NCBI RefSeq assembly: GCF_900107975.1
Contig: NZ_FNVF01000002.1
Coordinates: 511,178-575,177, forward strand
Source of the DNA: Paenibacillus sp. UNC499MF
Lineage (GTDB): Bacteria > Bacillota > Bacilli > Paenibacillales > NBRC-103111
Direction: 5' to 3'
DNA length: 64,000 bases
The position numbers and the translations under genes are program-made. The first letter of the stretch is position 1; every line of letters starts with the position of its first letter. Below are positions 13,430 through 32,019 of this stretch, piece after piece. The notes beneath the pieces are model-generated. The model was given only the letters and a program-made list of their open reading frames with translations, ran no database searches and was not told the DNA's origin.

Positions 13430-14755
13430 ATGCGTTTGCTGTTCAAAGAGCAAAAATATGCCTGGTTTCTTCTGGCATTCTTATGGGTGTTCGGTTTTGT
13501 CGGATCTTTGGGCAGGTTCGTCATGGCGTATTACCAGAAGGACATTTCGGAAACTCTGGGCGTAGGACGAAGCTTTCTCGGGGCCACCTGGTCCACGGCC
13601 ATTTTTATCGGCGCAATCAGCGCACCGCTCGGGGGCTGGCTGATCGACAAAATCGGCTACAAGAAAGTCATGATTTACAGCGCGATCGCCAACCTGCTTT
13701 CCCTGGCTATCGTTCTGCTTTTCCGCAATCCCATCGGTTATTTCCTTGGATTCGGATTGATTACAGGCATAGCGGGTATAGGGGCCTCGGCCAGCTATGT
13801 GCTGGTCGCAAACTGGTTTAAACATCACCGCGCCAAAGCGTTAATGATCATTGGCAGTGCCGGTTCTCTCGGATTGGCGGTGCTCACTCCCGTTCTTGTC
13901 AGCAACAAAAGCTGGCTGAGCTGGACAACGGTATATACCGTGCTGTTTATTATTTCGCTCGCGTTCATCCCCTTGATTTTATTGATTGTCCGTTCCAACA
14001 AAGAGGCAGCCGAAGAAGAGGCGCCGGCAGCATCCGTACAGGACACATCGTCTCCTACAAATAAGGAATCCGGTGAAGAACAGCCGCCGGCTCCCGCAGA
14101 ACCTGTCTTTTCCCTGAAGAAAATGTCGGAAGGCTTCAAGGCATTCCTGCTTTACCTGACCCGCCCGGTTATGCTGGTCATTATGTTCGCCCTGCTTACG
14201 TGCGGTATCAGCATGGGCACCGTCGAAATGAACTTGATGGCCATTCACCAGCTGGCTCACGTGCCCGATGTGATGATGTCCTCGTCCCTGAGTTTGCTGG
14301 GACTTTTGGAACTGGTTGGGGGCGTCACGTTCTCCATCCTTCTGGACTACATGCCGCGTGTGAAAGCACTTGCTTACTTATATTTCTTCCGTATCGCCGC
14401 TTTCGCGGTTCTGTTCTTCCACTTTGAGTATTCTCCTATTCTCTTTTCGCTGATTTTCGGAGCGACCTATCTTGGCGCTGTGCCTGGAGGTATTCTCGTT
14501 GCCGGAGAAGCATTGAATGAAGGCAAGAAACAAATCGGCCTTCAGACGGGAATTCTCCTGCTCATTCATCAATTGGGCGGAGTCATTGCGGCAATCGCCG
14601 GTGGATTCAACTTCGACCTTGCGAATAACTATCAATTCCTGATCGCGGCCAACGCCGTTTTCAGCTTAATCGCCGCCGCGGGATATTTTGTCCTTCACCG
14701 CAAAGGAATCGGGACCAAGAAAGCCCCTGTTCTTACCGGCGAGGTCGGCGCCTGA
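13430..14755 (+). CDS. MFS transporter (12 TM)
   Basis: 441 residues with two blocks of six membrane helices separated by a hydrophilic, Pro/Glu-rich loop (about residues 190-230). The motif GGWLIDKIGYKKVM after helix 2 is the MFS signature (GxLaDrxGrkxv). It resembles OFA/monocarboxylate-type MFS proteins. Start ATG follows AAAGGAG. Divergent from the MocR regulator, which may control it. It stands 257 bases before the biosynthetic cluster, so a role in that cluster is possible but not shown. Confidence 0.85.
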   Translation: MRLLFKEQKYAWFLLAFLWVFGFVGSLGRFVMAYYQKDISETLGVGRSFLGATWSTAIFIGAISAPLGGWLIDKIGYKKVMIYSAIANLLSLAIVLLFRNPIGYFLGFGLITGIAGIGASASYVLVANWFKHHRAKALMIIGSAGSLGLAVLTPVLVSNKSWLSWTTVYTVLFIISLAFIPLILLIVRSNKEAAEEEAPAASVQDTSSPTNKESGEEQPPAPAEPVFSLKKMSEGFKAFLLYLTRPVMLVIMFALLTCGISMGTVEMNLMAIHQLAHVPDVMMSSSLSLLGLLELVGGVTFSILLDYMPRVKALAYLYFFRIAAFAVLFFHFEYSPILFSLIFGATYLGAVPGGILVAGEALNEGKKQIGLQTGILLLIHQLGGVIAAIAGGFNFDLANNYQFLIAANAVFSLIAAAGYFVLHRKGIGTKKAPVLTGEVGA

Positions 14756-14874
14756 TCAGTAACTTTCAAGAGAGGCGGGGAAAGGCTCCCGCTTCCGCTT
14801 GACAGGCGGTTTAAGTCTGGCTTTACGATTACGTTTCGTAAGAGATCTTGCTTGGATATTTCTGTGCCGTCGTT

Positions 14875-14903
14875 TTGTACGATGTGCACTGGAGATATAT
14901 AGT
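14875..14903 (+). promoter_or_regulatory. Candidate promoter of the biosynthetic cluster
   Basis: TTGTAC (14875-14880), 17 bases, TATAGT (14898-14903), about 110 bases before the first gene at 15013. It is the best match in the 257-base spacer after the MFS gene. No operator or regulator gene for the cluster was recognised. Confidence 0.45.
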
Positions 14904-15012
14904 CTATGACGCAGCATGAGAAGGTGAAGAAAGCGAGGTGTCGACATAGGCAGCCCTTTTTTTTAAGCACAAAATGGATATTAATAGAAGATTAAGGAGT
15001 TGATATTAAAAA

Positions 15013-15972
15013 ATGAAAATAATACCAAGATATGATGAGGATTTTTTTAACTGTGTGGAAAGTCATTATGTAAGCTATTGGAAAGCAGAAGGCATTCCGG
15101 TTGAATATATGTTTTACGGCGCCTTGGAAGATACCCGTAACGTCTACGATCATTTTATCGAAAAAAGGGACAACCGCTGGCTTTTTCACGACAAAAAACA
15201 CGTTTTGGACGATATTCATCATTTCGGCCTGACATTACGCCAGGAGAGAATCGAAACGTTCCAAGAAGCGGAGCCGAAAATTATCGAAGCGCTGGATGAG
15301 GGGAAAATCGTATTTTTCTTCATCGACGGATATTACTTCAAACACCGCACCTTTACTTATCTCCAAAAGCATGAACCCCACTGCATGATGATTTCCCAGC
15401 TCAGCCACGAGGGCGGAAAGAAATGGTTCATCCAGGACCATGCCCAGCCGGATTTCTTCGACTATTACCCCCATGAAACGGTTGAAAAAGCTTATGACGA
15501 TAATCCCGTAGAACAATTTGTCAAAGAGATCATGATTTTCGACATCGACCGCGAACGGGCGGCCAATCCTGAACTGGACCAAATCAAAGCGAAATTCGAG
15601 CTCTGGGTCCACGAATGCCGCGACGATTTTAAAATTTACCAGCAGGCTGTCGATTTTCTGGAAGCCAACCGTGCAGACATCTCCAAGGTGGAAGAAGAAC
15701 TGGAGGCGTACCAGAATGCGTTTTTCTTCCTTTACAGCTCCCGACTCCTGTTCAGTCGATTCCTCGATGTCATGAACATTGAAACCTCCATCCGCGAATC
15801 TTTAAATGAAAGCATCCAATTGACCGACAGGGTCCGCAAGCTGATTACCAACTACAAGATCCTGGGGAAAATCAGTGTTCCCAAAATTACGGAAGCATGC
15901 GGCAGACTCTACGAAATCGAAACTCAAATGATCCAGACCCTGAAAGAAGAGCTGCTGACACAAAAAATATAG
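15013..15972 (+). CDS. BtrH-like acyltransferase (papain-like fold), copy 1
   Basis: 319 residues resembling the BtrH N-terminal family. BtrH moves an acyl group from an acyl carrier protein to an aminoglycoside amine in butirosin synthesis. A papain-like triad can be proposed: Cys14 in FFNCVESHY, His123 in EPHCMMI and Asp142 in FIQDHAQ. The C-terminal half is charged and helical. First gene of the cluster; an acyl carrier protein gene starts 15 bases downstream. Two related proteins are at 24595 and 25642. The family call is by motif pattern and context; the acyl group and acceptor are unknown. Confidence 0.7.
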   Translation: MKIIPRYDEDFFNCVESHYVSYWKAEGIPVEYMFYGALEDTRNVYDHFIEKRDNRWLFHDKKHVLDDIHHFGLTLRQERIETFQEAEPKIIEALDEGKIVFFFIDGYYFKHRTFTYLQKHEPHCMMISQLSHEGGKKWFIQDHAQPDFFDYYPHETVEKAYDDNPVEQFVKEIMIFDIDRERAANPELDQIKAKFELWVHECRDDFKIYQQAVDFLEANRADISKVEEELEAYQNAFFFLYSSRLLFSRFLDVMNIETSIRESLNESIQLTDRVRKLITNYKILGKISVPKITEACGRLYEIETQMIQTLKEELLTQKI

Positions 15973-15987
15973 GAGGAGTCAACTTTT

Positions 15988-16239
15988 ATGAATCCAATTG
16001 AGCACAAAATCAGAGAAATCCTTACACAGTCGGACATCGCCGTTGACCAGATCGGAAGCAATGACGATATGACAACGATGGGGCTAAACTCGTTAACCCT
16101 GATTAAATCGATGCTGGAGATCATCAAGTTTTACGATCTCGAAATCGATGAAGAAAGCGTGGAATTTTACAACATCAAAACGATTCAGAACATGGTGGAC
16201 TTCGTGTCCGCGAGTGTGGCCGAGAAAGCCAACGCTTAG
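15988..16239 (+). CDS. Acyl carrier protein 1
   Basis: 83-residue four-helix carrier protein. The phosphopantetheine serine is Ser35 in MGLNSLTLIK; most carriers have Asp before the Ser, here Asn. Ribosome site AGGAGG lies a few bases upstream. It sits between a BtrH-like gene and a halogenase-like flavoprotein gene, the arrangement expected if an acyl chain is held on this protein for oxidation or halogenation and then transferred. It is not the fatty-acid synthase carrier, given its divergence and context. Confidence 0.88.
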   Translation: MNPIEHKIREILTQSDIAVDQIGSNDDMTTMGLNSLTLIKSMLEIIKFYDLEIDEESVEFYNIKTIQNMVDFVSASVAEKANA

Positions 16240-16280
16240 CCAAAAACAGGATTTCCAATAGGGAAGGGGCATTCAATTTA

Positions 16281-17978
16281 ATGGAAAACAAAGCAGCAGG
16301 AACAGCAAAAAACTATGATGTTATCGTAATCGGGGCAGGAATCGCGGGAACGATCCTTTCCGCCATCTTGGCCAGACAGCAGATCAGCGTACTTGTTATC
16401 GATGCGGCCACTCATCCGCGTTTCGTTATCGGGGAATCCATGATTCCCGCCACATCTTTTATGATGCGGATTATGGCCGAGCGCTACGATGTGCCTGAAA
16501 TCATGCACTGCAGCACACTTCCGTTTGTTCAAAATCATATCACATCGAATTCCGGAACAAAACGTAATTTCTCGTTCTTTTATCACCGTGAGGGACAAGC
16601 CCAGAATCCGAAGGAAAGCACGCAGCTGCCGGTCCCTAATATCCCTTACGGACCCGAAGCTCACTTGTTCAGACAGGACACCGATGCTTACATGATGGCG
16701 GTAGCCATTAAGTACGGCGCCAAAGTGAAGCAGAAGACGATGATCACCGATATCGATTTCCACGAGGACGGCGTTAATATCAAAACGACGGCGAACGAAG
16801 AGTTCAGTGCCAAGTATATCGTGGACGCCAGCGGCTTCAACTCCGTGTTGGCGAAGCGGCTTGGCCTGCGTGAAGAGCCGTCCCGGATGAAAACAAACTC
16901 CCGTTCCCTGTTCACACACATGGTCGGCGTAAAACCGTTCGACGAAATTACAAATAAGGATGAGCACAAGCTCCCTAACCGGATTCATAACGGTACGCTG
17001 CATCATATCTTTGACGGCGGCTGGCTGTGGGTCATCCCGTTTGACAACAACGCGAAATCCACGAGTATCCTATGCAGCGTCGGTCTTCAATACGACCTGA
17101 ATCGCAATCCGGACAACGTTCCGAACAAAAAGCCGGAAGAAGAATTTGCCGACTTCCTCGAAGCTTACCCCGATGTCAAAAAACAATTCGAAAACGCCAA
17201 ACCGGTAAGAGAATGGATTTCAAGCGGCGGCCGGCTTCAATATTCCGCAAGCAAGGTTATCGGCAAGCGTTTCTGTTTGCTGGCACATGCTTCCGCCTTT
17301 ATCGATCCGCTGTTCTCCAGGGGTCTTGCCATCACGACGGAAACGATCAACTCGCTTGCCCAGCGCTTGATCGACGCCGTAAGGGAAGACGACTTCAATG
17401 AAGAGCGCTTTGAACCGGTTTCCCGGATCATCCAGCAATCTTATGACACAAATGACCGCCTCGTTTCCTGTTCGTACACCGCTTTCCGTGACTTTAATCT
17501 CTGGAATGCCTGGTACCGCGTATGGGCGCTTGGACAAGCTTTTACCTCTCTTCGCCTGACTCAGGTTCTCTCCAAATTCTACAAAGAAAGAGACATGCAA
17601 ATTTTGCTGGATATCGAGAAGGCTCCGTTCATCGGCTCCTTGTGCGTGGATTTTGCGGAGTTCCAGCCTCTGTTTGAAAAGGTGGCCTCGACGGTGGAAG
17701 CGGTCCGTGATCATGGGCTTTCTACGGAAGAAGCGACTAAGCGGATTTACGGCTATTACGAAGAAGTGCAGGGCTTTATTCCGGATCAGTATGAATTTTT
17801 GAACCCGGACAAGCGTTTTATTTCGAAGATGGACATGCTTTCCCTTTATGAAGTGGTTATGTGGGGAGCACAGCAGGCGCCGGAAACGATCCGGAAACTG
17901 TATTTCGATATCGACGAATCTTTCTTGAAGGGAACGAAGGAACCTGCTTCCAATGCGGTTCCCGTTACGACGGTATAG
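16281..17978 (+). CDS. FAD-dependent halogenase-like monooxygenase
   Basis: 565 residues. FAD-binding GAGIAG at 18-23, GESMIP at 51-56, DASG at 182-185, WLWVIP at 248-253 and FIDPLFSRG at 340-348. The WxWxIP and GES motifs are those of flavin-dependent halogenases and relatives acting on carrier-bound substrates; the last motif is shared with geranylgeranyl-reductase-like flavoproteins. The enzyme may chlorinate or hydroxylate; motif alone does not settle it. Its gene follows an acyl carrier protein gene by 41 bases, so a carrier-tethered substrate is likely. A flavin reductase gene was not seen nearby. Confidence 0.78.
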   Translation: MENKAAGTAKNYDVIVIGAGIAGTILSAILARQQISVLVIDAATHPRFVIGESMIPATSFMMRIMAERYDVPEIMHCSTLPFVQNHITSNSGTKRNFSFFYHREGQAQNPKESTQLPVPNIPYGPEAHLFRQDTDAYMMAVAIKYGAKVKQKTMITDIDFHEDGVNIKTTANEEFSAKYIVDASGFNSVLAKRLGLREEPSRMKTNSRSLFTHMVGVKPFDEITNKDEHKLPNRIHNGTLHHIFDGGWLWVIPFDNNAKSTSILCSVGLQYDLNRNPDNVPNKKPEEEFADFLEAYPDVKKQFENAKPVREWISSGGRLQYSASKVIGKRFCLLAHASAFIDPLFSRGLAITTETINSLAQRLIDAVREDDFNEERFEPVSRIIQQSYDTNDRLVSCSYTAFRDFNLWNAWYRVWALGQAFTSLRLTQVLSKFYKERDMQILLDIEKAPFIGSLCVDFAEFQPLFEKVASTVEAVRDHGLSTEEATKRIYGYYEEVQGFIPDQYEFLNPDKRFISKMDMLSLYEVVMWGAQQAPETIRKLYFDIDESFLKGTKEPASNAVPVTTV

Positions 17979-17997
17979 CGTCGGGGGGCCGTAAATC

Positions 17998-19272
17998 ATG
18001 CATCTTCTTCTCAATGTAATGATCGCTCTAATTCTCATTCTTACGTCTGCACGGATTATGGCCAGAGTGGCGGTCCTGCTCGGATTTCCTTCTGTAATCG
18101 GAGAGATGGTAGCGGGGATTCTTCTGGGACCCACCTGCTTCATGTATTTCTTTCCCGAAATCGGCAAAGCGGTATTTACTGCGGATGTCGGCAATGTGAT
18201 CTACATTTTAAGCAATTTCGGCCTGTGCCTGTACATGCTGCTTGTCGGTATGGAGATGAAAGGCATCGACCGGAAGTCGTTCCGGCAGGCCGGTATGCTC
18301 GCTTCATCGGGAATTATTCCTCCCTTTCTGCTTGGGGGAGGAATCTCCCTCTTCCTGTATGCATCTCTTGCGCAGCAGCAGATTACCCAGCTCGAATTTT
18401 TTCTGTACATGGGAGTCGCCTTATCGATTACCTCTATTCCCATGCTTGCGAGAATTCTGGAAGAGCAGGGGCTGCTTCAATCCCGTTTCGCCTCGCTTAC
18501 TATGCTGGCGGGAAGTATAGACGACGTTATTTCGTGGTGCATTCTGGCTGTCGTGATCGTCATGGTACAAGCCAAAAGTATGTTCTCCGGAGTGTCGACT
18601 CTGCTGTATACCATTTTGTTCGTTCTGATCGTCCTGTTTGTCGTGAAACCGCTGATGCAGCGTTTTGGCGCAAAGGTCCAGAAGGCCGGCTTCTTATCGC
18701 ACGGAGGATTGGCCACCGTTTTGCTGCTGACACTGGGAGCCAGCTTCGTCACGGAATACATCGGCATTTATGCCGTCTTCGGCTGTTTTATACTGGGACT
18801 GGCCATGCCGCGCAGCGAAGTGTTTCTCAGCGAAATGAACGTCAAGATCAGAGACATTACCGTAGTCTTTTTTCTCCCGCTTTATTTCGCTTATTCGGGG
18901 ATGAAGACGAATCTGCTGGACCTGTTCAGCGCCGATATGCTGGCTCCGTTCCTTATCCTGCTGGTTTGCTCCATTCTGGGCAAATACGGCGGATGTACGC
19001 TTTATATGAGAAAGATCGGATTCAGCTGGAGAGAAGCCTCCGCAGTCGGCGGATTGATGAATGCCAGAGGACTGATGGAGCTGGTCGTCATCAATATCGG
19101 GATGACTTACGGAATCATCACACCCAAGCTTTACGCCATGCTCGTACTGATGGCGCTAGTGACTACCGCTCTCGCTATGCCGATCTACTCCTTATCCATG
19201 GGGACGAAGTCCCGTTCGGCTTCGACGGTATTCCCTCCCAAAGTCCAGTACCGTACAGAGGACGGAGGCTAG
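17998..19272 (+). CDS. Kef-type cation:proton antiporter (CPA2)
   Basis: 424 residues with 11-13 membrane helices, membrane part only, without the C-terminal TrkA domains of KefB/C. The N-terminal pattern with GFPSVIGEMVAGILLGP is typical of CPA2 exchangers. It lies inside the biosynthetic cluster, 19 bases after the halogenase-like gene and 30 bases before the second carrier gene. Such antiporters occur in some antibiotic clusters and may serve self-protection or ion balance; a direct export role is not established. Confidence 0.85.
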   Translation: MHLLLNVMIALILILTSARIMARVAVLLGFPSVIGEMVAGILLGPTCFMYFFPEIGKAVFTADVGNVIYILSNFGLCLYMLLVGMEMKGIDRKSFRQAGMLASSGIIPPFLLGGGISLFLYASLAQQQITQLEFFLYMGVALSITSIPMLARILEEQGLLQSRFASLTMLAGSIDDVISWCILAVVIVMVQAKSMFSGVSTLLYTILFVLIVLFVVKPLMQRFGAKVQKAGFLSHGGLATVLLLTLGASFVTEYIGIYAVFGCFILGLAMPRSEVFLSEMNVKIRDITVVFFLPLYFAYSGMKTNLLDLFSADMLAPFLILLVCSILGKYGGCTLYMRKIGFSWREASAVGGLMNARGLMELVVINIGMTYGIITPKLYAMLVLMALVTTALAMPIYSLSMGTKSRSASTVFPPKVQYRTEDGG

Positions 19273-19302
19273 GAACATCAATCTGAAGAAGGTGGGAAAA
19301 CG

Positions 19303-19560
19303 ATGAATATTCAAGACAAAATCAAACAATTTATTATGGAAGCCTCGGACGGCAATGTGACGCCTGAGGATCTGGAAAGAGTAGGCGACGATATCGGAAG
19401 ACTTGGACTGGATTCCCTGGCGAAGATCAAAATCGTCGTTCTGCTGGAGGAAGCTTACGATATTGAGACCGAAGTGGAAGAAATCAGTCCGGAAGTACTC
19501 AACTCCATTTCCCGTCTGGCGGAGTTCATTGAACAGGAAGTTCAGAAAATTTCTGTATAA
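19303..19560 (+). CDS. Acyl carrier protein 2
   Basis: 85-residue carrier protein with the classical motif GLDSLAKIK; the phosphopantetheine site is Ser38. Acidic, helical. It differs clearly from carrier 1 (GLNSL), suggesting two carriers with separate partners. Start ATG follows GAAGGTGGG. Placed between the antiporter and the class II aldolase genes. Confidence 0.9.
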   Translation: MNIQDKIKQFIMEASDGNVTPEDLERVGDDIGRLGLDSLAKIKIVVLLEEAYDIETEVEEISPEVLNSISRLAEFIEQEVQKISV

Positions 19561-19605
19561 CGTGCGTACTTTAATCATTTTTCAACCGGAAGGGGACTAA
19601 ATTGA

Positions 19606-20325
19606 GTGAGCCAGTTTATTGAAGAGATGGTCTATGCCTCTCAAATTTTGTATCTGGAGGGACATAACGACATTAACAACGGGCAAATTTCATACCGCGA
19701 CCCCGAAACGGGAAACATCTGGATCCGGAAAGGGTTTCTGGGCTGGGAAGAAACGACGCCCGACGATTTTATCCTTATCGATGCCGAAGGCAACCGCTTG
19801 AAGGGTGAGGGGCATATTCCTTCGGAATGGCCGCTCCACACCGAAACGTACAAAGCGAGGGCGGACGTGAACTGCATTATTCACTCGCACCCTCCGTATT
19901 CCATGATCTTCAGCGCCACGGATCTGGATCTTCGTCCGGTTACGCACGATGCTACCCCGATTATGAACACACAGCGTTTTACGCTGACTACAAATACGGT
20001 TACAAACACGAATATTGCCGCACAGGTAGCGGAATCGCTCGGAAAAAGCAACACGCTGCTGCTCAAAAACCACGGACTTGTCGCAGCCGGTAAAACGATT
20101 CCGGAAACCGTCTGCTGGGCAGCCGTTCTGGAGAACGCGTGCAAGCTGCAGCTTATCGCCGAGTCCACAGGTGTTCCTTATACATGGACGGAAGGCCACG
20201 AGATCAAAATGAAAAGCAAAATCATCTTCGGCGCGACAGCGATCCGGGAGTACTGGGCCTACTGGTGCAGGAAAGCGGACCGGCACTTTAATCCCCATTC
20301 CAAAAACCACTTGGTAGGAGTGTAA
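19606..20325 (+). CDS. Class II aldolase/adducin family protein
   Basis: 239 residues of the class II aldolase/epimerase fold. Zinc ligands are visible as His93 and His95 (IIHSHPPYSM) and His156 (LLLKNHGLVAAG), with a catalytic acid candidate Glu74 (PSEWPLH). Family members cleave or epimerise sugar phosphates such as L-fuculose- or ribulose-phosphate. Start is GTG at 19606 after GGAAGGGG. It ends one base before the next ATG, so translation is likely coupled to the large adenylation protein. Probably makes or breaks a small carbon unit for the product; substrate unknown. Confidence 0.85.
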   Translation: MSQFIEEMVYASQILYLEGHNDINNGQISYRDPETGNIWIRKGFLGWEETTPDDFILIDAEGNRLKGEGHIPSEWPLHTETYKARADVNCIIHSHPPYSMIFSATDLDLRPVTHDATPIMNTQRFTLTTNTVTNTNIAAQVAESLGKSNTLLLKNHGLVAAGKTIPETVCWAAVLENACKLQLIAESTGVPYTWTEGHEIKMKSKIIFGATAIREYWAYWCRKADRHFNPHSKNHLVGV

Positions 20326-20326
20326 C

Positions 20327-23215: not shown

Positions 23216-23232
23216 GCAAAAGCAAGCTCGGC

Positions 23233-23253
23233 ACCGGCGGGAAAACCGCCGGT
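23233..23253 (+). other. Stem-loop between adenylation and aminotransferase genes
   Basis: ACCGGCGG, loop GAAAA, CCGCCGGT: a perfect eight-pair stem with a GNRA-like loop and no T-run. It sits 17 bases after the stop. Perhaps an RNA stability or processing element rather than a terminator. Confidence 0.5.
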
Positions 23254-23285
23254 TCTCCATAAAAACACACAAATGAGGGATAATC

Positions 23286-24530
23286 ATGCTCGTTCTTCAA
23301 GATTACATTCAAAAGTCCTTTGCGGACCGCATCGGCGGAGATAAGTTCGGCAAAGGAAACGAGGTCTACAAATTCGAGAAAATCAAGCGGGCGAAGGCTC
23401 AAGCTTTGAAGGAGAAACCGGGTATTCCTATCATTGATATGGGATTAGGGGAGCCCGACTGGATGGCCGACAAGGAGGTCGTTAACGTTCTCTCCGCGGA
23501 AGCGGCCAAACGTGAAAACCGGTTTTACTCGGATAACGGGTCGGTTGACTTCAAGGAGGCGGCAGCCGCATACATGGAGCGGGTTTACGGTGTAAAGGGA
23601 CTTAATCCCGCGACCGAAATCAACCACTGTATCGGCTCCAAGCCCGCTCTCGCCCAGATTCCGGCTGTATTCATCAACCCGGGAGACATTACGCTGATGA
23701 CCGTGCCGGGTTATCCGGTTATAGGCACCCATACTCAGTGGCTGGGCGGGGAAGTGGTCAAGATGCCGCTTCTGGAAGAGAACGGCTATCTGCCCGATTT
23801 GAATGCCTTGTCCGACGAGGTGAAGAAAAGAGCGAAGCTGCTCTATCTGAATTACCCGAACAATCCGACCGGTGCCGTGGCTACCCGGGCGTTTTATGAA
23901 GAAGTCGTCCGCTTTGCCAAAGAAAATGAAATTATCGTCGTATCCGATGAGGCCTACGCCGCATTGACGTTCGACGGTGAACCGCCGCTGTCGTTCCTGT
24001 CCGTTCCGGGAGCCAAGGACGTAGGCGTTGCCATTCAGTCCTTGTCGAAGGCGTTCAACATGACGGGCTGGAGGCTGGGTTTCGTGGTCGGCAACGAGCT
24101 TGTTCTGAAAGCATTTTCTTACGCGAAAGACAATCATGATTCCGGACAATTTCTTGCGATTCAGAAAGCGGGCATTTACTGCCTGAACCATCCGGAAATT
24201 ACGGAGGCTACCGCAGCCAAATATTCCAGACGGCACGGCCTTCTGGCTGAAGCTTTAGGCTCGGTCGGCTTTAAAGTCCGGAAGCCCAAAGCGACCTTCT
24301 ATTTATATGCGCAAGCTCCGAAGGGCATAGAAGAAGGGCCGCGTTTCGATAGTGCGGAGGACTTTTCCCAATATCTGATTACGGAAAAGCTGATCTCCAC
24401 CGTGCCTTGGGACGATGCGGGCGCCTATGTGCGTTTCTCCGTCACATTCGAGGCGGAAGGCGAAGAGGAAGAAAGAGCATTGATCGACGAGCTTAAATCG
24501 AGGCTGCACGGACTCCGGTACATCTGGTAA
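23286..24530 (+). CDS. DapL-like class I/II PLP aminotransferase
   Basis: 414 residues, fold-type I aminotransferase similar to LL-diaminopimelate aminotransferase. PLP lysine K255 in SLSKAFNMTGWRLGF; other family marks are NYPNNPTGAV, SDEAYAALTFD and the C-terminal VRFSVTFE. Start ATG follows GAGGG. DapL normally makes LL-diaminopimelate for lysine and peptidoglycan; inside this cluster it more likely supplies an amino group to an intermediate. A housekeeping DapL displaced here cannot be ruled out. Confidence 0.85.
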   Translation: MLVLQDYIQKSFADRIGGDKFGKGNEVYKFEKIKRAKAQALKEKPGIPIIDMGLGEPDWMADKEVVNVLSAEAAKRENRFYSDNGSVDFKEAAAAYMERVYGVKGLNPATEINHCIGSKPALAQIPAVFINPGDITLMTVPGYPVIGTHTQWLGGEVVKMPLLEENGYLPDLNALSDEVKKRAKLLYLNYPNNPTGAVATRAFYEEVVRFAKENEIIVVSDEAYAALTFDGEPPLSFLSVPGAKDVGVAIQSLSKAFNMTGWRLGFVVGNELVLKAFSYAKDNHDSGQFLAIQKAGIYCLNHPEITEATAAKYSRRHGLLAEALGSVGFKVRKPKATFYLYAQAPKGIEEGPRFDSAEDFSQYLITEKLISTVPWDDAGAYVRFSVTFEAEGEEEERALIDELKSRLHGLRYIW

Positions 24531-24594
24531 TCCCGCACAGTGGCAGCATGGGGATGACGGAAGGCTGTCTAATTCGAAGAAGGAGTGAAGACGC

Positions 24595-25608
24595 GTGAAA
24601 ACGGGAATTAAAATGCTGCCTGTGGAGATACCTCCCATCCATGGACGCATGTATTACGCGTTTCCGTTGAGTATACTCGGTCCGGCCGATTCTTATCTGC
24701 CGTGGATGCTCAACAATTTTATACAGCTGCAGGCTTATTCGCTGACCAGGACCGGGGAAGAACAAGCCGCGGAAATCCGTTTTTATAACGCGGACGAGCC
24801 CGGCTGTTTCAGTGAAGTGCTGACTATAGTGCCGGAAGCGGCGGGAAAAGAGCAGGACATTCACCGGCAGGCGGTAGAAGCTATTGACCGGGGCCAATAC
24901 GTGTATGCCTATGTAGATAAATATTTTGTGGCGGACAATCCTTTTCACGGAAAGAAACACGTTGTCCAGGAAGCGCTGATCTACGGATACGATCTGGAAG
25001 AGCAAACTTTCCGGATTCTTGGTTTTAACAAAAGCAGACTTTTCGCTTCTTCAATTGTCCCTTTCGCCGATATTGCCAAAGGGATTATCCATTCTCCCGT
25101 TACGGATGTTTTCCTGTTAAAGCCGAGAGAAGATTTTAAACCGGAATTCCAGCTGGACAAGGTGATACCGCTTCTGACCCAGTACGTGGACTCGGCGGAC
25201 AAGCATACCGGAGCCGCACTTCCCGAGCGTTCCAGGCTGGTGTTCGGACTCGATGTTTACAAAAGCGCTGTGGAGTCTTTGAGGTGCATTCTGGACAGAG
25301 AAGGTGCTGTCGTAACGAATATCGCTTACCTTCATATCCTTTGGGAGCACAAGAAAGTTATGGGAGTCCGGCTGCAGTACATGCAGGATCATGGGATTGC
25401 CATACATTCGGGTCTGGACATCGTACGGGAAGCGTATCGGCAAATGGAACAGGAGTTGTTCAACTTAAGAAACAAGCTGCTCAAATACGAGCTCACTCAA
25501 AGCGCGCGTCTGATCGAACAGATCATCCAAAGCCTCGATGCGATGGCGCTGAAAGAAAAGCAGGTTCTGGAGCTTTGGCTGGAACGGCTGGCTATGATAC
25601 CGGGCTGA
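24595..25608 (+). CDS. BtrH-like protein, copy 2, catalytic Cys absent
   Basis: 337 residues, same general plan as the proteins at 15013 and 25642: an N-terminal papain-like region of about 160 residues and a helical C-terminal half. His122 (KKHVVQEALIYGYD) is retained, but the N-terminal NCV motif is replaced by a stretch without Cys (MYYAFPLSIL), and the Asp after VL is ILGFN here. It may be a non-catalytic partner of copy 3, whose gene follows 33 bases downstream. Start GTG with AAGGAG upstream. Homology is judged by pattern. Confidence 0.6.
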   Translation: MKTGIKMLPVEIPPIHGRMYYAFPLSILGPADSYLPWMLNNFIQLQAYSLTRTGEEQAAEIRFYNADEPGCFSEVLTIVPEAAGKEQDIHRQAVEAIDRGQYVYAYVDKYFVADNPFHGKKHVVQEALIYGYDLEEQTFRILGFNKSRLFASSIVPFADIAKGIIHSPVTDVFLLKPREDFKPEFQLDKVIPLLTQYVDSADKHTGAALPERSRLVFGLDVYKSAVESLRCILDREGAVVTNIAYLHILWEHKKVMGVRLQYMQDHGIAIHSGLDIVREAYRQMEQELFNLRNKLLKYELTQSARLIEQIIQSLDAMALKEKQVLELWLERLAMIPG

Positions 25609-25641
25609 TTTTCATCTTGATCAAGAAGGGAGCGCGCTGCG

Positions 25642-26640
25642 TTGACCTCTAACCAATCTCTACACCCGTTTAACGACTTCTGGATGAACTGCGTTTCGAA
25701 TACGGTATATTCTATTGCCGTCTCTAACGATTCCAGCTACCGGACGGCGGCTTATCTGAATCACTATACGTATCAGGTCGCAGCTGATCCTGCATTCACT
25801 TATTTAACGATGGACCATCCGCTTGAGTATCAGAATGAGGTTTTTAATTCGTTTATCCGAAAGTGGGAGCCTTACAATTTCCGGAATCCCCAGAAAATCG
25901 GGGAGGAAATCGGCGAATTGCTGGACAGCGGTCAACTCCCGGTCGTCCATGTGGATTTATTTCACTGGATTCCGAACTCACTCGCCTGGAAACAGTACCA
26001 CTGGTACCATTACTCGCTAATCACGGGTTACGATGCGGAGCGTTCGGTATATCGGGTACTGGATGACGATATCAACGGTTTCCGGGATTTTGAAGTTCCG
26101 CCCGAGCGTCTGCAGGAGGCTTTTCTCAGTTCGCAAACGGAAAATAACCCGGCTTATCAGGAGCCCCCTTGTTCTCTGATCCGGCTGAAGGAAGAGATTC
26201 CGCCTTACGAATTCAAGCTTTCCGATTTGAGCCGCCACGCGGAGAGGCTGATCGGAGAGCTGGACAGCCTGCAGACAGAGCATCTGTGGGAAGGTACACC
26301 GGAACCGGATATGTTCGAAGAGAGCATGACCAACGGACTGGTCGGCGTCAATATTATTGAAAGCAGACAGGCGGGAAACCGGCTTATGCTGCGCTATTTA
26401 CTGGATGCGGGATTTATAAAAGAAGCCGATTTTCAGACGCTCGACCGGGAGCTTGAGGAGTTGGCCCTTGGCTGGTTCAAAGCGAAAAATGTGTTTATCA
26501 AGGCGAAATTTTCATTGAAGAGAAGATTCAACAGGGAGCAGCTCATGACCTTAGCGGTACCGCTTCTTTACCGGGAGAGGAATTACTGGGCGGCGCTTCT
26601 CGAAACTACCGGCGCCGCGGCTCTCTCTAAGGAATCCTAA
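25642..26640 (+). CDS. BtrH-like acyltransferase (papain-like fold), copy 3
   Basis: 332 residues with the same motif order as copy 1: Cys17 in WMNCVSNT, His123 in YHYSLITGYD, Asp141 in YRVLDDD. The Cys-His-Asp spacing closely matches copy 1 (14/123/142), which supports common descent and a functional triad. Start TTG at 25642 after AAGGGAG. Expected to transfer an acyl group from a carrier to an acceptor, or to hydrolyse it. Follows the Cys-less copy 2 at once. Confidence 0.68.
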   Translation: MTSNQSLHPFNDFWMNCVSNTVYSIAVSNDSSYRTAAYLNHYTYQVAADPAFTYLTMDHPLEYQNEVFNSFIRKWEPYNFRNPQKIGEEIGELLDSGQLPVVHVDLFHWIPNSLAWKQYHWYHYSLITGYDAERSVYRVLDDDINGFRDFEVPPERLQEAFLSSQTENNPAYQEPPCSLIRLKEEIPPYEFKLSDLSRHAERLIGELDSLQTEHLWEGTPEPDMFEESMTNGLVGVNIIESRQAGNRLMLRYLLDAGFIKEADFQTLDRELEELALGWFKAKNVFIKAKFSLKRRFNREQLMTLAVPLLYRERNYWAALLETTGAAALSKES

Positions 26641-26666
26641 GAAGAAGCTAAGGAGGGCGCCAAAAG

Positions 26667-28607
26667 ATGAAATATACCGGTACGGAACAAGTGGAAGTAT
26701 CGCAGCATCACGGCCGTCTCCGGCCTGTACCCGGTGTACGGCATTACCAGGCGGTCCGTGCTTCCAGGCTTATGCCTGACTTGGAGGGAGGTCCCGGCTG
26801 GACCTTTCATAACGCGCCAATGCTGGCATTCTGGAGACAGCGGTTTTATTTGCAGTACATTACATGTCCCGTGGAAGAGAATCATCCTCCCGCCCGGACG
26901 ATGATCACCAGTTCGGCCGACGGCAGGGAATGGACCGAGCCAAGGGTTGCGTTCCCTTCTTATGAAATACCGTCCGGTGTGTACATCGGACCGGACGGGA
27001 CCGACCTGCCGAAGGGCAGCCTTTCCGTCATGCATCAGCGTATGGGGTTCTATACTGCAGCGGACGGAAGACTTCTGACACTGGGCTTTTACGGTATCAG
27101 TCCGGAACTTTCCGTGATGCCCAATGACGGCAGGGGAATCGGCCGGGTCGTACGCGAGATTTACCCAGACGGGTCCATGGGGCCGATCTATTTCATCCGG
27201 CTGAATGCTCATGCGGGATGGGATACCGGAAATACCAAATATCCTTTCTATACGGAATCGCCGGATGAAAAGTTTGTCGAGGCATGCCGTCTGTTATTGC
27301 AGGACAAGCTGGCGACGGCTCAGTGGTGGGAAGAGGATCAGAGCGAGGATGGCTTCTATCCGCTTACGGGCTATAAAGCGCTGAGCTGCTATTCCTTGCC
27401 GGACAACAAGGTGGCCGGCATCGGTAAAAACGGCAAATACGCGCTGAGCTCGGACAACGGGGAAAGCTGGACGGAGACCGGTGAGATAGACGGTCTGGTT
27501 ACAGCGGGCAGCAAGCTGTGGGGCCAGCAAACGCCGGACGGCAAATATGCGCTGCTGTACAATCCCAACCCGAACAATGCGTACCGCTGGCCGCTGGCCG
27601 CAGCCGTAAGCGAGGATGGGCGTCACTTCGACAAGCTCCGGTTAATCGGAGGCGAAGCTCCTCCCCGCCGCTATACCGGTTTTTACAAATTTTACGGGAT
27701 GAATTATGTCCGCGGAATAACGCCCGGTAACGGCACGCCCGAAGAAGATGCAATCTGGGTCACTTACAGCATGAACAAAGAGGACATTTGGGTGGCCCGC
27801 ATACCGGTACCCTTGGAGCCTGACACCCGAGAAGAGGCCGAGTCGTCCGCTGAGCTTGGATCGGATGTGAATAGCTCGTTCAATGGTTATGCCCCACCCG
27901 GGCATAACATGGCCGAGTCACAATCCGAACCGGATCATGTAACGGACATGTTATCTCCTGCGACCAAAGAGAGCGGAGGGATGGCGGCTCGTCCAGGCTC
28001 CGGCCTCGAGGATTTCGACCGTTGGAGTGTCTACCAGCCGAAGTGGTCGGAGATCCGGTTGCGGGGGGATTCCGGGCTTATCTTGAGCAGCCGCGACCCT
28101 TATGACTACGTCAAAGTCGAGAAAGCTTTCGCCTTCCGGGCCGATCTTCAGACGGATGTGACAATCGGTATCCGGCCCCTTGCCATCGGAACGGTACCCC
28201 TTACGATCGAGCTGACCGACGGCCGGGGAGAAACGGCCTTCGGACTCGAGTGGAGTACGGACGGATGTATTTCGGTCCTGCAAGGAGAAAGCAGCGTATT
28301 TTTACAAACCTATGAAGAGGGAACCGAGTATGACTGCGCGCTGTCCATTGATCCGGATAACGGCAGCTTACGCCTTTCCATAAACGGAACGCCGGCAGGA
28401 AAGCCTTTTGAGTATCGTACAGCGCAGGTTAAAACCGTCGCATTCAAAGTAGGCGAGAGGCCGTTTCGGGTAACGCTGGATACGCCCCTGGACGGAGGGG
28501 ATTTGAGCATTCCGGATGAGCCGCTCCTTCCCTCTGCCTACTGTATCCGCTATGTGAAAATCCAAAGCTCGCGCTTATCAAATCATGTGCAAGCCGAAAG
28601 GAGATGA
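26667..28607 (+). CDS. Sialidase-fold (beta-propeller) protein, no signal peptide
   Basis: 646 residues. The first 400 contain repeated propeller-type motifs (SSADGREWTEP, SSDNGESWTE, SEDGRHFDK), like Asp-box repeats of exo-alpha-sialidases. Residues about 400-470 are a low-complexity linker, then a beta-rich region (about 475-620) that may be a concanavalin-like or carbohydrate-binding module. No signal peptide is visible, unlike secreted sialidases, so it should act inside the cell. In a product cluster it could hydrolyse or rearrange a glycoside. Start ATG after AAGGAGGG. Catalytic residues could not be assigned. Confidence 0.6.
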   Translation: MKYTGTEQVEVSQHHGRLRPVPGVRHYQAVRASRLMPDLEGGPGWTFHNAPMLAFWRQRFYLQYITCPVEENHPPARTMITSSADGREWTEPRVAFPSYEIPSGVYIGPDGTDLPKGSLSVMHQRMGFYTAADGRLLTLGFYGISPELSVMPNDGRGIGRVVREIYPDGSMGPIYFIRLNAHAGWDTGNTKYPFYTESPDEKFVEACRLLLQDKLATAQWWEEDQSEDGFYPLTGYKALSCYSLPDNKVAGIGKNGKYALSSDNGESWTETGEIDGLVTAGSKLWGQQTPDGKYALLYNPNPNNAYRWPLAAAVSEDGRHFDKLRLIGGEAPPRRYTGFYKFYGMNYVRGITPGNGTPEEDAIWVTYSMNKEDIWVARIPVPLEPDTREEAESSAELGSDVNSSFNGYAPPGHNMAESQSEPDHVTDMLSPATKESGGMAARPGSGLEDFDRWSVYQPKWSEIRLRGDSGLILSSRDPYDYVKVEKAFAFRADLQTDVTIGIRPLAIGTVPLTIELTDGRGETAFGLEWSTDGCISVLQGESSVFLQTYEEGTEYDCALSIDPDNGSLRLSINGTPAGKPFEYRTAQVKTVAFKVGERPFRVTLDTPLDGGDLSIPDEPLLPSAYCIRYVKIQSSRLSNHVQAERR

Positions 28608-28616
28608 GGTGCTTCT

Positions 28617-30062
28617 GTGACCACTTTATTGAAAAACTATATATCCGGCAGCTGGCAGGAATCTTCTTCATCCGTGACGGAAGCGGTCTATAATCCGGCT
28701 GATGACGGAGTTATCGCCCAAGTCCCTCTGTCAACCCGCAAAGATCTGGATGAGGCTGTTCAAGCGGCGAAGGCCGCCTTCCTGCCGTGGAAAAACACAC
28801 CCGTTCAGAAAAGGGCGAGAATTCTTTTTAAATACCAGCAGCTTCTCGTTGAAGCCTGGGACGAGCTTGCCGCTTTGATCACGAGAGAGAACGGGAAATC
28901 TCAGCAGGATGCGTACATGGAGGTCCAGCGCGGCGTCGAATGCGTGGAATTCGCGGCGGGTATTCCGTCCCTCATGATGGGACAGATTACTCCGGATGTG
29001 GCTACCGGTGTAGAGACGACTATGCTGCGTTACCCGATTGGAGTAGTGGGGGGCATCACACCGTTTAATTTCCCCATGATGGTCCCCTGCTGGATGTTTC
29101 CCATGGCGATTGCCTGCGGCAATACGTTCATTTTGAAGCCGTCCGAACGTACGCCTCTGCTTGCGAACCGGCTGGCCGAGCTGTTCACGGAGGCGGGGCT
29201 TCCCGACGGCGTGTTCAATATCGTGCACGGCGCGCGCGAAGTGGTGAACGGCATTCTGGAGCATCCCGAGATCAAAGCCGTATCCTTCGTCGGCTCGCAG
29301 CCGGTTGCGGAATACGTGTACAAAACGGCGGCACAGCACGGCAAAAGAGTTCAGGCTCTTGCCGGAGCCAAAAATCATTCCATCGTTATGCCGGATGCGG
29401 ATGAAGATCTTGCGGTCAAGAGCATTATCGAGTCGGCTTTCGGATCCGCCGGTGAACGGTGTATGGCTTGTTCCGTCGTCGTTCTGGTCGGCGGAGACCG
29501 CGAAGGCTTGAAGCAAAAACTGCTTGCCGCGGCGGACCGGCTGCAGATCGGCAGCGGTGAGGAGAAGGAGACGGAACTTGGTCCCCTTATCCGTCAAAGC
29601 CACAAGGACAGGACGCTGGATTATCTCAGCTCCGGCGAACAGGAAGGCGCCGTTCTGCTGCGGGACGGCCGAAAAGACAGGGCCGCATCGGGCGCAGGCT
29701 ATTTTCTCGGACCGACGGTCTTCGATGAAGTTACCCCGGCCATGAAGATTTGGCAGGAAGAAATTTTCGCGCCCGTGCTGTCCATTATGCAGGCGGACAA
29801 TCTGGAAGAGGCGATCGCGCTTGCCAACCGCTCTTCTTTTGCCAACGGAGCCTGCATTTACACCGGACAGCTCGCTGCCGTCCGCCAGTTCCGCGAGGAA
29901 ATAGATGCCGGCATGCTGGGAGTGAACATCGGCGTACCTGCTCCGACGGGGCTTTTCCCTTTCTCCGGCTACAAAAACTCTTTTTACGGCGATCTGCATG
30001 TGAACGGGAAAGACGGACTTGAATTTTATACGCGCAAGAAGGTAATGACGGTGAAAGCCTGA
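28617..30062 (+). CDS. mmsA: MmsA/IolA-type CoA-acylating aldehyde dehydrogenase
   Basis: 481 residues, the family size. Nucleophile C282 in GERCMACS; the general-base position reads LAGAKNH, the mark of methylmalonate-semialdehyde dehydrogenases, which form acyl-CoA rather than acid. Cofactor region [13 protein letters not shown] is also typical. Start GTG at 28617 with GAGGTG upstream. Converts a semialdehyde to propionyl- or acetyl-CoA. In this cluster it may supply an acyl-CoA or oxidise a pathway semialdehyde. No myo-inositol genes lie near, which argues against an iol role. Confidence 0.88.
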
Positions 30063-30102
30063 GTACAGCCTGAAGCGGCGCAGATGGAAAGGAGTGTGAC
30101 GA

Positions 30103-31104
30103 ATGGAGCTGCTCAAGCAGGAAACCGAGGACATTGTCAGTGTGAAGCTGCCTGTCGGCAGTGTCCTGCAGTGGCTGAACGCTTATCTCATCCGCGGGGA
30201 AGACGGCTACACGCTGCTTGATGCGGGAATGCCCGATGAAGAAACATTCGGCTTGTGGCAGCAAGCCTGGAGACATCTGGGGATTTCTCCGCGAGATATC
30301 ACCTCCATTATAATCACTCATCATCATGTGGATCATTACGGATTGGCCGCGAGACTCCAGGAAGTGACGGGAGCCCCGGTTCGCATGACGGAGTCCTGTT
30401 TCCTTCAGGCCTCGCGAATATGGTCGGCGGATTCCGTTTACGATGAAGAGGTATTGGAGCTTTTCGCCCGGCACGGAGCTCCCGGGCATCTGCTGGAAGT
30501 TACCGCGCCGGATCTGAAGCATTACGTGAAGTCTGTGAATGTCCATCCGGATACGGAATTTATACGGGCAGGCGATAAACTTGTGCTCGGTAAGTCGATC
30601 TTCGAAGCCGAGCTGGTGTCCGGCCACGCGGAAGGACATCTCTGTCTATACGACAAACAAGATCAGCTCGTTTTTTGCGGGGATCATGTGATTCCGAAAA
30701 TGCTGCCAAACCTTAATTTCACGCTCGGATTTGACGAGAATCCGCTCGGCTCTTATTTCAGTTCGCTGAAGGAGCATGCCGAATTGCCTGTCCGGAAGGC
30801 TTATCCCGGGCATATGATTCCTTTCCGAAAGTACAACGCCCGTGCGGCCGACATTGCGGCCCAGTACCGGCAGCGCATTGACGACATACTGGCCCGCCTG
30901 GACAAGCCGATGACCGCTTTTGAATTGTGCTGTCTCGTGTTCTTTGTGCCGGTAAACGCGGAGCAGCTCCGTTTTAAGCTGTTTGAAATGCTGGCCAGCC
31001 TGAATTATTTGCAGAGTCTGAATTTGATTGAACCGGCGGAAGCGGGAGCGGACGGGCGGCTTTATTACAGACGTGCACCCGTACATGCTAATCGGAACCC
31101 ATGA
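30103..31104 (+). CDS. Metallo-beta-lactamase-fold hydrolase
   Basis: 333 residues. The metal motif HxHxDH is H73, H75, D77, H78 in THHHVDHYG; further ligands appear in SGHAEGH and CGDHVIP. A C-terminal helical domain (about 245-330) like a winged-helix tail of LACTB2-type proteins follows. Candidate thioesterase or lactonase for releasing a carrier- or CoA-bound intermediate. Start ATG after AAAGGAG. Last but one gene of the cluster; the next begins 13 bases after its stop. Confidence 0.85.
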   Translation: MELLKQETEDIVSVKLPVGSVLQWLNAYLIRGEDGYTLLDAGMPDEETFGLWQQAWRHLGISPRDITSIIITHHHVDHYGLAARLQEVTGAPVRMTESCFLQASRIWSADSVYDEEVLELFARHGAPGHLLEVTAPDLKHYVKSVNVHPDTEFIRAGDKLVLGKSIFEAELVSGHAEGHLCLYDKQDQLVFCGDHVIPKMLPNLNFTLGFDENPLGSYFSSLKEHAELPVRKAYPGHMIPFRKYNARAADIAAQYRQRIDDILARLDKPMTAFELCCLVFFVPVNAEQLRFKLFEMLASLNYLQSLNLIEPAEAGADGRLYYRRAPVHANRNP

Positions 31105-31117
31105 AAGGATGAGGACA

Positions 31118-31915
31118 TTGGAAGCAAACAAAATAGTGGACTGGGCACATTATATCTTCGTAAGCGCAAAAGCGGGCCTTACTTATGCCTCGGACAGCTG
31201 TGATCTGAAAAGATACGCGGTTATTAAGGGAGTGGCGCAAGAGATGCTTTCTCTTTACACAGAGCCGCATGAGGATCTCCCTCGCAGAGTTCCGAACGGA
31301 GAAAACAAAATTTATTTAACGTTTGACGACGGCCCCGATCCCGTTTATACCCCGCAGATCCTGGATCTTTTAAAAAAATACGGCATCACCGGTACATTCT
31401 TTCTAATGGGAGAAAGGGTACGGCAGCACCCGCACATCGTTAAGCGGATAGTGGATGAAGGGCATGCGATCGGCAATCATACCTATACCCATCCTTTCAT
31501 GATCCTCCTTAATGAGAAAGAGTTGAACGAGGAGCTGTCCTTGACGGATGAAGCCATACGAGATGCCGTCGGTTTTTCGCCCGTTCTTTTCCGCCCTCCG
31601 TACGGTTTGCTGAATCAGGGGACTATCGATTTGCTCCGGGCCCGGGGTTACGAAATTATGATGTGGTCCGAGGAACTCGAAATGTATGATTGGTCTTTCC
31701 CCGGGGTGGACAACATGGTCCGTCTTATTGAGGAAAAGACAGAATCCGGCAGCATGATTCTGCTTCATGACGGTGGAGGAACCCGGGAAGAAACTGTCCG
31801 TACGTTAGAGAAAGTCATTCCTCTGCTGCTCGAGCGCGGTTTTCATTTTGCCGCAGACTACCTGGAGCAAAGCCGGAATGAACACGGGCAAACTGCGGCG
31901 GGAACGGCCCGGTAA
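31118..31915 (+). CDS. Polysaccharide deacetylase-fold (NodB) protein, cytoplasmic
   Basis: 265 residues from TTG 31118 (AAAGGA eight bases upstream; the frame's earlier ATG codons overlap the preceding gene). NodB motifs: TFDDGPDP with D70/D71, NHTYTHP with H121/H125, RPPYG, and LLHDGGG. The 60-residue N-terminal part is not a signal peptide and has no membrane segment. A cytosolic NodB enzyme in this setting suggests N-deacylation of a small molecule, comparable with deacetylases in other antibiotic clusters. Ends at the terminator at 31983. Confidence 0.85.
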   Translation: MEANKIVDWAHYIFVSAKAGLTYASDSCDLKRYAVIKGVAQEMLSLYTEPHEDLPRRVPNGENKIYLTFDDGPDPVYTPQILDLLKKYGITGTFFLMGERVRQHPHIVKRIVDEGHAIGNHTYTHPFMILLNEKELNEELSLTDEAIRDAVGFSPVLFRPPYGLLNQGTIDLLRARGYEIMMWSEELEMYDWSFPGVDNMVRLIEEKTESGSMILLHDGGGTREETVRTLEKVIPLLLERGFHFAADYLEQSRNEHGQTAAGTAR

Positions 31916-31982: not shown

Positions 31983-32019
31983 AACAAGGGAGCATTCCGG
32001 ACGGAATACTCCCTTGTTT
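31983..32019. terminator. Bidirectional terminator closing the cluster
   Basis: AACAAGGGAG-ATTCCG, short loop, CGGAAT-CTCCCTTGTTT: a long stem usable on both strands, between the deacetylase gene (plus) and bluB (minus). Confidence 0.85.

Follow-up and report, generated by a model that had tools for sequence, protein, structure and literature searches.

A recurrent gene cluster of Paenibacillus and related bacteria points to probable carrier-templated amide formation without condensation domains

The stretch of DNA studied here is a 64,000-nucleotide window from the 5.84 Mb genome of Paenibacillus sp. UNC499MF. At positions 15013-31915 it carries a block of 14 genes that brings together two acyl carrier proteins (ACP1 and ACP2), a 962-residue fusion of two SagB-type oxidase domains with an adenylation domain (the SagB-A fusion), a flavin-dependent halogenase and three proteins related to BtrH, a protein so far tied to butirosin (BtrH1, BtrH2 and BtrH3). 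The best explanation for this block, and one that we hold with somewhat more confidence than doubt, is a carrier-templated small-molecule pathway in which amides would be joined without condensation domains. The product would be a small, probably chlorinated amide compound, the amide bond being one that we infer from the enzymes present. None of the 14 proteins matches a condensation or ketoacyl-synthase domain in Pfam or NCBIfam, so the block is neither a standard nonribosomal peptide synthetase (NRPS) nor a standard polyketide synthase (PKS), as the initial annotation of this DNA had proposed. That annotation also knew of no described pathway with this gene set, and our searches of open-access papers showed none.

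The genes of the block are more than chance neighbours, because they occur together in other genomes too. Nine clusters were compared, counting the window: those of P. sp. HGH0039 (G060) and P. chitinolyticus NBRC 15660 (G058), both of the window's genus; that of a genome from another family, f10 (G288); those of P. curdlanolyticus (L044) and P. sp. MMS18-CY102 (L045); and three further ones, in P. xylaniclasticus (L046), P. phyllosphaerae (L047 with L069) and Cohnella lubricantis (L048). Presence was called by tblastn at E 1e-10 within the stretches compared. ACP2, the aldolase-fold enzyme, the SagB-A fusion and a BtrH2-type protein are present in all nine clusters, although for the fusion this count holds by construction for most rows, since eight of the clusters were chosen for holding the fusion or its near kin, and only that of G288 was reached through the aldolase. 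The aminotransferase and a propeller protein are found in eight, and the shares of the other genes are listed in Table 1. Close kin of ACP1 and BtrH3 occur in four clusters and other ACPs in the remaining ones, the close kin of ACP1 being confined to the window's genus and G288. Adenylation domains, ACPs and BtrH-like proteins stand together in every cluster, which supports the initial reading of a carrier-built acyl part with BtrH-type transfer as the best one.

The full set is shared by P. chitinolyticus, P. sp. HGH0039 and G288, and rearranged versions of it occur in five more Paenibacillus and Cohnella species. Apart from the position of the MFS (major facilitator superfamily) gene, the order in G288 is that of the window: btrH1-ACP1-halogenase-antiporter-ACP2-aldolase-fusion-aminotransferase-btrH2-MFS-btrH3-propeller-dehydrogenase-MBL-deacetylase (MBL, metallo-beta-lactamase), with the deacetylase read as two open reading frames (ORFs). 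That the genes travel together had been set beforehand as the point on which a neighbourhood comparison could refute the cluster, and the comparison across genera bore it out. A pattern scan of 84,980 species genomes with two peptides (WRSCWKY and PAEWNDY), which is not a census, returned 13 loci, seven of them with the full fusion, and the aldolase was found at 72-100% identity in six of 392 genomes sampled from the order. The fusion of G288 is 70% identical to that of the window but 53% and 49% identical to those of L044 and L048, whose genomes (G191 and G269) belong to family f10 as G288 does. This closer kinship across families argues for horizontal transfer. The tree likewise pairs G288 with the window, at a support of 89/91 that lies under the star threshold, and base composition gives no sign of horizontal origin (GC 0.516 in 13430-31915 against 0.514 in the rest of the window).

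The BtrH-like proteins are the candidates for amide formation. Cys14, His123 and Asp142 (BtrH1 numbering) are kept in all 13 rows of an alignment of BtrH1- and BtrH3-type proteins (A5), and we take these residues to be a catalytic triad of the peptidase-like fold. BtrH2, the type found in all nine clusters, has lost this triad: it is without the N-terminal Cys and has Gly or Phe near the Asp position. In the window, G288 and L047 its His is replaced by Gln, and some other BtrH2-type proteins retain a His at this place. BtrH2 has no Pfam match, and its tie to BtrH1 and BtrH3 comes from profile-profile comparison (97.5%, E 7.8e-12). At E 0.01, BtrH_N is matched by 10 of the 13 members of A5 and by two of the 11 members of alignment A4. 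AlphaFold2 models of BtrH1 (pLDDT 83.8, pTM 0.81) and BtrH2 (pLDDT 81.5, pTM 0.80) are of fairly good confidence, and their elements follow one another in the same order. The three BtrH-like transferases of the initial annotation are therefore better described as two catalytic-looking proteins and one degenerate paralogue, their relationship by profile having stood.

Related proteins occur outside the cluster. Elsewhere in the window genome (G000:C11, L073:8157-17924), a BtrH2-type protein lies directly before a 1509-residue condensation-adenylation-carrier NRPS, in a neighbourhood with a beta-lactamase-fold protein, a thioesterase and a 3-hydroxyacyl-CoA dehydrogenase-like protein, and this genome therefore holds a second BtrH2-type cluster. 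At G000:C24 (L072:6003-9496), a protein with BtrH_N over the gathering score follows several ORFs of about 95 residues, which might be a precursor array, in a transporter neighbourhood. In P. athensensis, a 1273-residue protein with a BtrH-like stretch (L033:14038-17859) is followed by an ACP-like ORF (17886-18146), and the same cluster holds a stand-alone SagB didomain.

The SagB-A fusion described initially as oxidase-oxidase-adenylation was borne out, with two Nitroreductase stretches followed by AMP-binding and AMP-binding_C. Its SagB part scores 160.5 bits against a TIGR03605 cut-off of 78.4, and Lys168-Tyr169 is present in nine of nine rows, seven of which may be preselected by WRSCWKY, one of the two search patterns. 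With this score and the Lys-Tyr pair, which we take to be the SagB/McbC motif, the protein falls among the SagB/McbC-type FMN dehydrogenases. The adenylation pocket ALFHNGLAFNTS is found in six of seven fused proteins and, but for its last letter, also in the seventh, and the HN of the pocket is kept in all seven fused rows of alignment A8. This near-constant pocket argues that the fused proteins take the same acid, and its FHN stretch is reminiscent of aryl-acid ligases. Both carrier proteins match PF00550 (PP-binding), as first proposed, and the attachment Ser is present in all 13 ACP rows.

Two enzymes could supply or trim this acid. The aldolase-fold enzyme has Glu74, His93, His95 and His156 in eight of eight rows, and its relatives in the PDB include NovR (80 bits) and Mlr6791, the latter presumably a hydroxypyridine-dicarboxylate decarboxylase. 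Enzymes of the NovR/CloR type would combine three metal His with the lack of a FucA-type Glu; here the His are present and the Glu is kept, at a place where NovR has Ala. The retained Glu74 suggests that the enzyme may be an aldolase or a non-oxidative decarboxylase. The aminotransferase scores 687.6 bits for NF004937 (cut-off 585) and is the sole gene of the genome above that cut-off. In the PDB it comes closest to 6l1l (229 bits), which we take to be bacilysin BacF, with DapL structures reaching at most 86 bits. The aminotransferase, class II aldolase and MmsA-type dehydrogenase of the initial annotation agree with their family matches (Aminotran_1_2, Aldolase_II, and Aldedh with TIGR01722 over its cut-off), and the same holds for the MBL hydrolase and the NodB deacetylase in Pfam.

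The halogenase had been called a carrier-type, halogenase-like flavoprotein. Membership of the Trp_halogenase family stands, whereas a carrier-dependent (PltA-type) halogenase is rejected, with PDB matches of 437.3 bits to CtcP and 372.9 to PltM but just 91.3 to PltA. The protein aligns with CtcP over residues 10-538 and with PltM over 10-504, including the C-terminal helical region that is absent from PltA. Papers on these enzymes place the catalytic Lys at Lys98 in CtcP and Lys87 in PltM, and Lys94 of the window protein aligns with it. Lys94 and the WLWVIP motif are kept in five of five rows. Best match, C-terminal region and Lys together place the enzyme with the phenolic halogenases of the PltM/CtcP type.

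Several relatives add enzymes of their own. L047 encodes a DltA-like ligase that passes its cut-off, together with one more ACP. In L046 the halogenase is absent, and a PabB-type aminodeoxychorismate (ADC) synthase and an FkbH-domain protein, both over their cut-offs, accompany a glycosyltransferase, a phosphopantetheinyl transferase (PPTase) and more ACPs. In L048 a second, divergent DapB (L048:12855-13691; 159.9 bits, against 267.0 for the other copy) follows the fusion directly, where the aminotransferase stands elsewhere. These differences suggest a constant core with exchangeable loaders. L044 has a PKS gene at its edge, past an intervening minus-strand gene, which probably belongs to a different cluster. 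A ScbR-like (TetR-family) regulator below its family cut-off (L044:5227-5838) also adjoins this P. curdlanolyticus cluster.

The block itself is compact (Table 1). It contains 14 genes rather than the 15 first counted, and two of its proteins, a CPA2 antiporter and a BT1020-like propeller protein, were missing from the earlier gene list. All genes lie on the plus strand with the short gaps noted initially, 1-70 bp between neighbours (15, 41, 19, 30, 45, 1, 70, 64, 33, 26, 9, 40 and 4 bp in order). This list uses a deacetylase start shifted to the in-frame ATG at 31109, the listed ORF beginning at TTG 31028 and overlapping the MBL gene; similarity of the deacetylase to its relatives begins only at residue 30-31 of the listed ORF. 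Promoter- and terminator-like patterns in the window are not commoner than in shuffled sequence, and the operon structure therefore rests on strand, spacing and conservation. Scans of the window for tRNA genes and Rfam families found none. The antiporter reaches 123.5 bits for TIGR00932, under its cut-off, and the propeller protein matches PDB 5mqr at 433.7 bits.

The MFS gene, 257 bp upstream, is probably a further member, because its homologue lies within the cluster in G288 and adjoins it in L044, L045 and L047. To the right of the block lies a minus-strand gene for a BluB-type 5,6-dimethylbenzimidazole synthase (32018-32665). Within the window's genus, this flank is retained from BluB onward in the genomes G059 and G061, where none of the cluster genes is found in the preceding 20 kb. 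In G288, the three window neighbours tested (BluB, a solute-binding protein and a HAD protein) and the MocR-type gene were not found in the flanks. Since the flanks of G288 differ and the flank in G059 and G061 stands without the block, we take btrH1, or else the MFS gene, as the first gene of the block and the deacetylase as the last. The dehydrogenase and the deacetylase were considered as outsiders and rejected as such: both recur in G288, and the dehydrogenase also in L047/L069.

Table 1. Genes of the cluster and the upstream transporter gene, in window coordinates
Feature	Position	Strand	Basis and occurrence
MFS transporter, probable member	13430..14755	+	PF07690 E 3.4e-30; homologues in 7/9 clusters
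BtrH1, BtrH-like with Cys14-His123-Asp142	15013..15972	+	BtrH_N 20.4 bits, under gathering score
ACP1	15988..16239	+	PF00550
FAD-dependent halogenase, phenolic PltM/CtcP type	16281..17978	+	PDB matches CtcP, PltM; 7/9 clusters
CPA2-type cation:proton antiporter	17998..19272	+	PF00999 E 4.7e-43; 5/9 clusters
ACP2, carrier of the core	19303..19560	+	PF00550; 9/9 clusters
Class II aldolase-fold enzyme (aldolase or decarboxylase)	19606..20325	+	PF00596 E 8.7e-40; 9/9 clusters
SagB-SagB-adenylation fusion, 962 residues	20327..23215	+	TIGR03605 and AMP-binding
Pyridoxal phosphate-dependent aminotransferase	23286..24530	+	NF004937; 8/9 clusters
BtrH2, degenerate BtrH-like paralogue	24595..25608	+	Profile kinship to BtrH1 and BtrH3; 9/9 clusters
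BtrH3, BtrH-like with Cys-His-Asp	25642..26640	+	BtrH_N 25.2 bits, under gathering score
BT1020-like beta-propeller protein with sialidase-like carbohydrate-binding module	26667..28607	+	PF24067 E 2.8e-100, PF22585; 8/9 clusters
MmsA-type CoA-acylating semialdehyde dehydrogenase	28617..30062	+	TIGR01722 (MMSDH) 611.8 bits, cut-off 448.5; 5/9 clusters
MBL-fold hydrolase, possible thioesterase	30103..31104	+	PF00753 E 3.2e-24; 7/9 clusters
NodB-type polysaccharide deacetylase	31109..31915	+	PF01522 E 8e-38; 4/9 clusters

What is known of these families suggests how the parts could work together, and we draw the substrates, the order of the steps and the amide formation from it. The aminotransferase and the aldolase-fold enzyme would supply or trim a carboxylic acid, which the adenylation domain would activate and load onto ACP2. 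The fused SagB pseudo-dimer may oxidise the loaded or activated acid, and the halogenase, where present, would chlorinate a phenol-like ring. The active-site Cys of BtrH1 and BtrH3 would shift acyl groups from an ACP thioester to an amine, with BtrH2 as a partner that is either inactive or repurposed. The MBL protein may remove or release acyl-ACPs, and the antiporter and MFS proteins could do the export. We favour this pathway because its core and the aminotransferase are so widely shared and the 14 proteins hold no condensation or ketosynthase domain, because the enzymes that relatives add make or load other ACP-bound units (DltA-like, FkbH, PabB-type, PPTase), and because the triad of BtrH1 and BtrH3 is invariant. 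There is also precedent: BtrH_N is reported to belong to an ACP:aminoglycoside acyltransferase (PMC10318531), and for closthioamide cysteine-protease-like proteins are described that form amide bonds on carrier proteins (PMC8868522).

Several observations weigh against such a pathway. BtrH1 and BtrH3 stay under the Pfam gathering score for BtrH_N of 29.7 bits, so that at this score none of the three BtrH-like proteins belongs to the family. Their similarity to true BtrH is weak (11-18%), and an automatic alignment puts the N-terminal Cys of true BtrH in a different column from that of BtrH1 and BtrH3. The sole catalytic-type (BtrH1-type) candidate of L046 is weak (E 0.0048), and no catalytic-type BtrH was found in the stretch of L048 examined. 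L048 also holds two ketoacyl-synthase proteins, so the relatives are not all ketosynthase-free, and BtrH2-type proteins adjoin a condensation-domain NRPS in the window genome as well.

Among the alternatives, the cluster could instead make an N-acylated amino sugar, with the deacetylase freeing an amine of the N-acetylglucosamine type, a BtrH protein acylating it and the propeller protein, as a glycosidase, activating or trimming the product. The NodB-type deacetylase and the glycoside hydrolase-like BT1020 propeller would fit, as would the acylation of an aminoglycoside by BtrH (PMC10318531). P. chitinolyticus DSM 11030 is moreover reported to have a butirosin-like cluster (PMC9744104), and BtrH_N proteins at 149 bits are encoded in the genomes G058 (C14:23631-24017) and G288 (C1:1351846-1352232), which also carry the present cluster. 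However, the deacetylase is found in just four of nine clusters, Pfam shows neither a glycosyltransferase nor an aminosugar gene for the 14 proteins, and the window genome has the cluster with BtrH_N matches of at most 40.9 bits, so butirosin is not needed. We consider the amino sugar unlikely, if the foremost of the alternatives, and reject a necessary link to butirosin, the window genome having the cluster but no strong BtrH. An accidental run of unrelated operons might explain the uneven sharing of the deacetylase (4/9), antiporter (5/9) and dehydrogenase (5/9), but in G288, which comes from a different family, all these genes follow the window's order (bar MFS) between flanks unlike those of the window, and in G059 and G061 the right flank stands without the block. 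Chance adjacency is thus rejected by the neighbourhood comparison and strikes us as extremely improbable.

The same assembly logic could also act on a different acid, of pyridine or pyrroline type and derived from lysine-pathway chemistry, with the aldolase-fold enzyme as a decarboxylase and SagB as an aromatising oxidase. Here the aminotransferase passes the NCBIfam cut-off for LL-diaminopimelate aminotransferase, the divergent DapB of Cohnella takes its place after the fusion, and the aldolase-fold enzyme is related to Mlr6791 of the PDB. Against this stand the phenolic type of the halogenase, an aminotransferase nearer to 6l1l than to the DapL structures, and the fact that family names are no test of substrate; we regard such an acid as rather unlikely. 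On the choice of core acid we lean slightly towards a phenolic one, to which the halogenase type and the FHN stretch point, over a heteroaromatic one, suggested by the DapL/DapB-type neighbours and the Mlr6791 kinship. Less probable still is that the BtrH-like proteins are hydrolases, either C39-like peptidases or ACP thioesterases, that release a free acid or CoA ester and form no amide. In PMC10318531, BtrH_N is placed close to C39 and C70 peptidases, and one of the 13 members of A5 weakly matches Peptidase_C39_2 (E 0.0086). The block showed no recognisable gene for a precursor peptide, although no search was aimed at one, and two to three BtrH-like proteins per cluster alongside several ACPs suit transfer better.

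Beyond the carrier-templated pathway as such, we tentatively propose, as a possibility that we hold with more doubt than confidence, that these clusters form a class of their own within thiotemplated amide assembly, one without condensation domains and so far seen in Paenibacillus-type bacteria. In this class, SagB-A would both make the acyl unit and oxidise it on ACP2, and the Cys-less BtrH2 would form an obligate complex with a triad-bearing BtrH, condensing units from interchangeable DltA-like, FkbH and PabB-type loaders. If the amide-forming pathway is right, it would represent an amide-forming logic beyond the NRPS, RiPP (ribosomally synthesised and post-translationally modified peptide) and ATP-grasp routes, and would give BtrH-like proteins a broader function. 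ACP2, the aldolase-fold enzyme, the SagB-A fusion and BtrH2 could then serve as a core for genome mining and open a way to new, partly halogenated metabolites that culturable strains might yield. The triad-less yet invariant BtrH2 also raises the question of whether BtrH-fold pseudo-enzymes drive condensation.

By analogy, the nearest described logics are those of butirosin BtrH and closthioamide. With butirosin the window shares BtrH_N-related proteins beside stand-alone ACPs and an acid-activating enzyme, but it has two catalytic-looking BtrH-like proteins and a degenerate one, a SagB-SagB-A fusion and a halogenase, and no aminoglycoside genes among the 14. With closthioamide (Cta) it would share, as we read the window, carrier-protein amide bonds formed outside NRPS logic. 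The 14 proteins have no ATP-grasp match in Pfam, whereas closthioamide-type assembly pairs an ATP-grasp protein with cysteine-protease-like enzymes that form the amide, and the window has BtrH-like rather than Cta proteins, a distinction drawn from published descriptions. NovR and CloR of novobiocin and clorobiocin offer a class II aldolase-fold enzyme with three metal His in an acyl-to-amide pathway, from which the window enzyme departs by its Glu. The halogenase resembles CtcP and PltM through the C-terminal region and the catalytic Lys, and differs in sitting in a carrier-protein cluster. Finally, SagB didomains of P. athensensis (L049) and of a metagenome-assembled genome (L050) are 55% and 44% identical to the fusion over the didomain, but they are unfused to an adenylation domain and stand beside NRPS genes, in L049 those of a condensation-domain NRPS.

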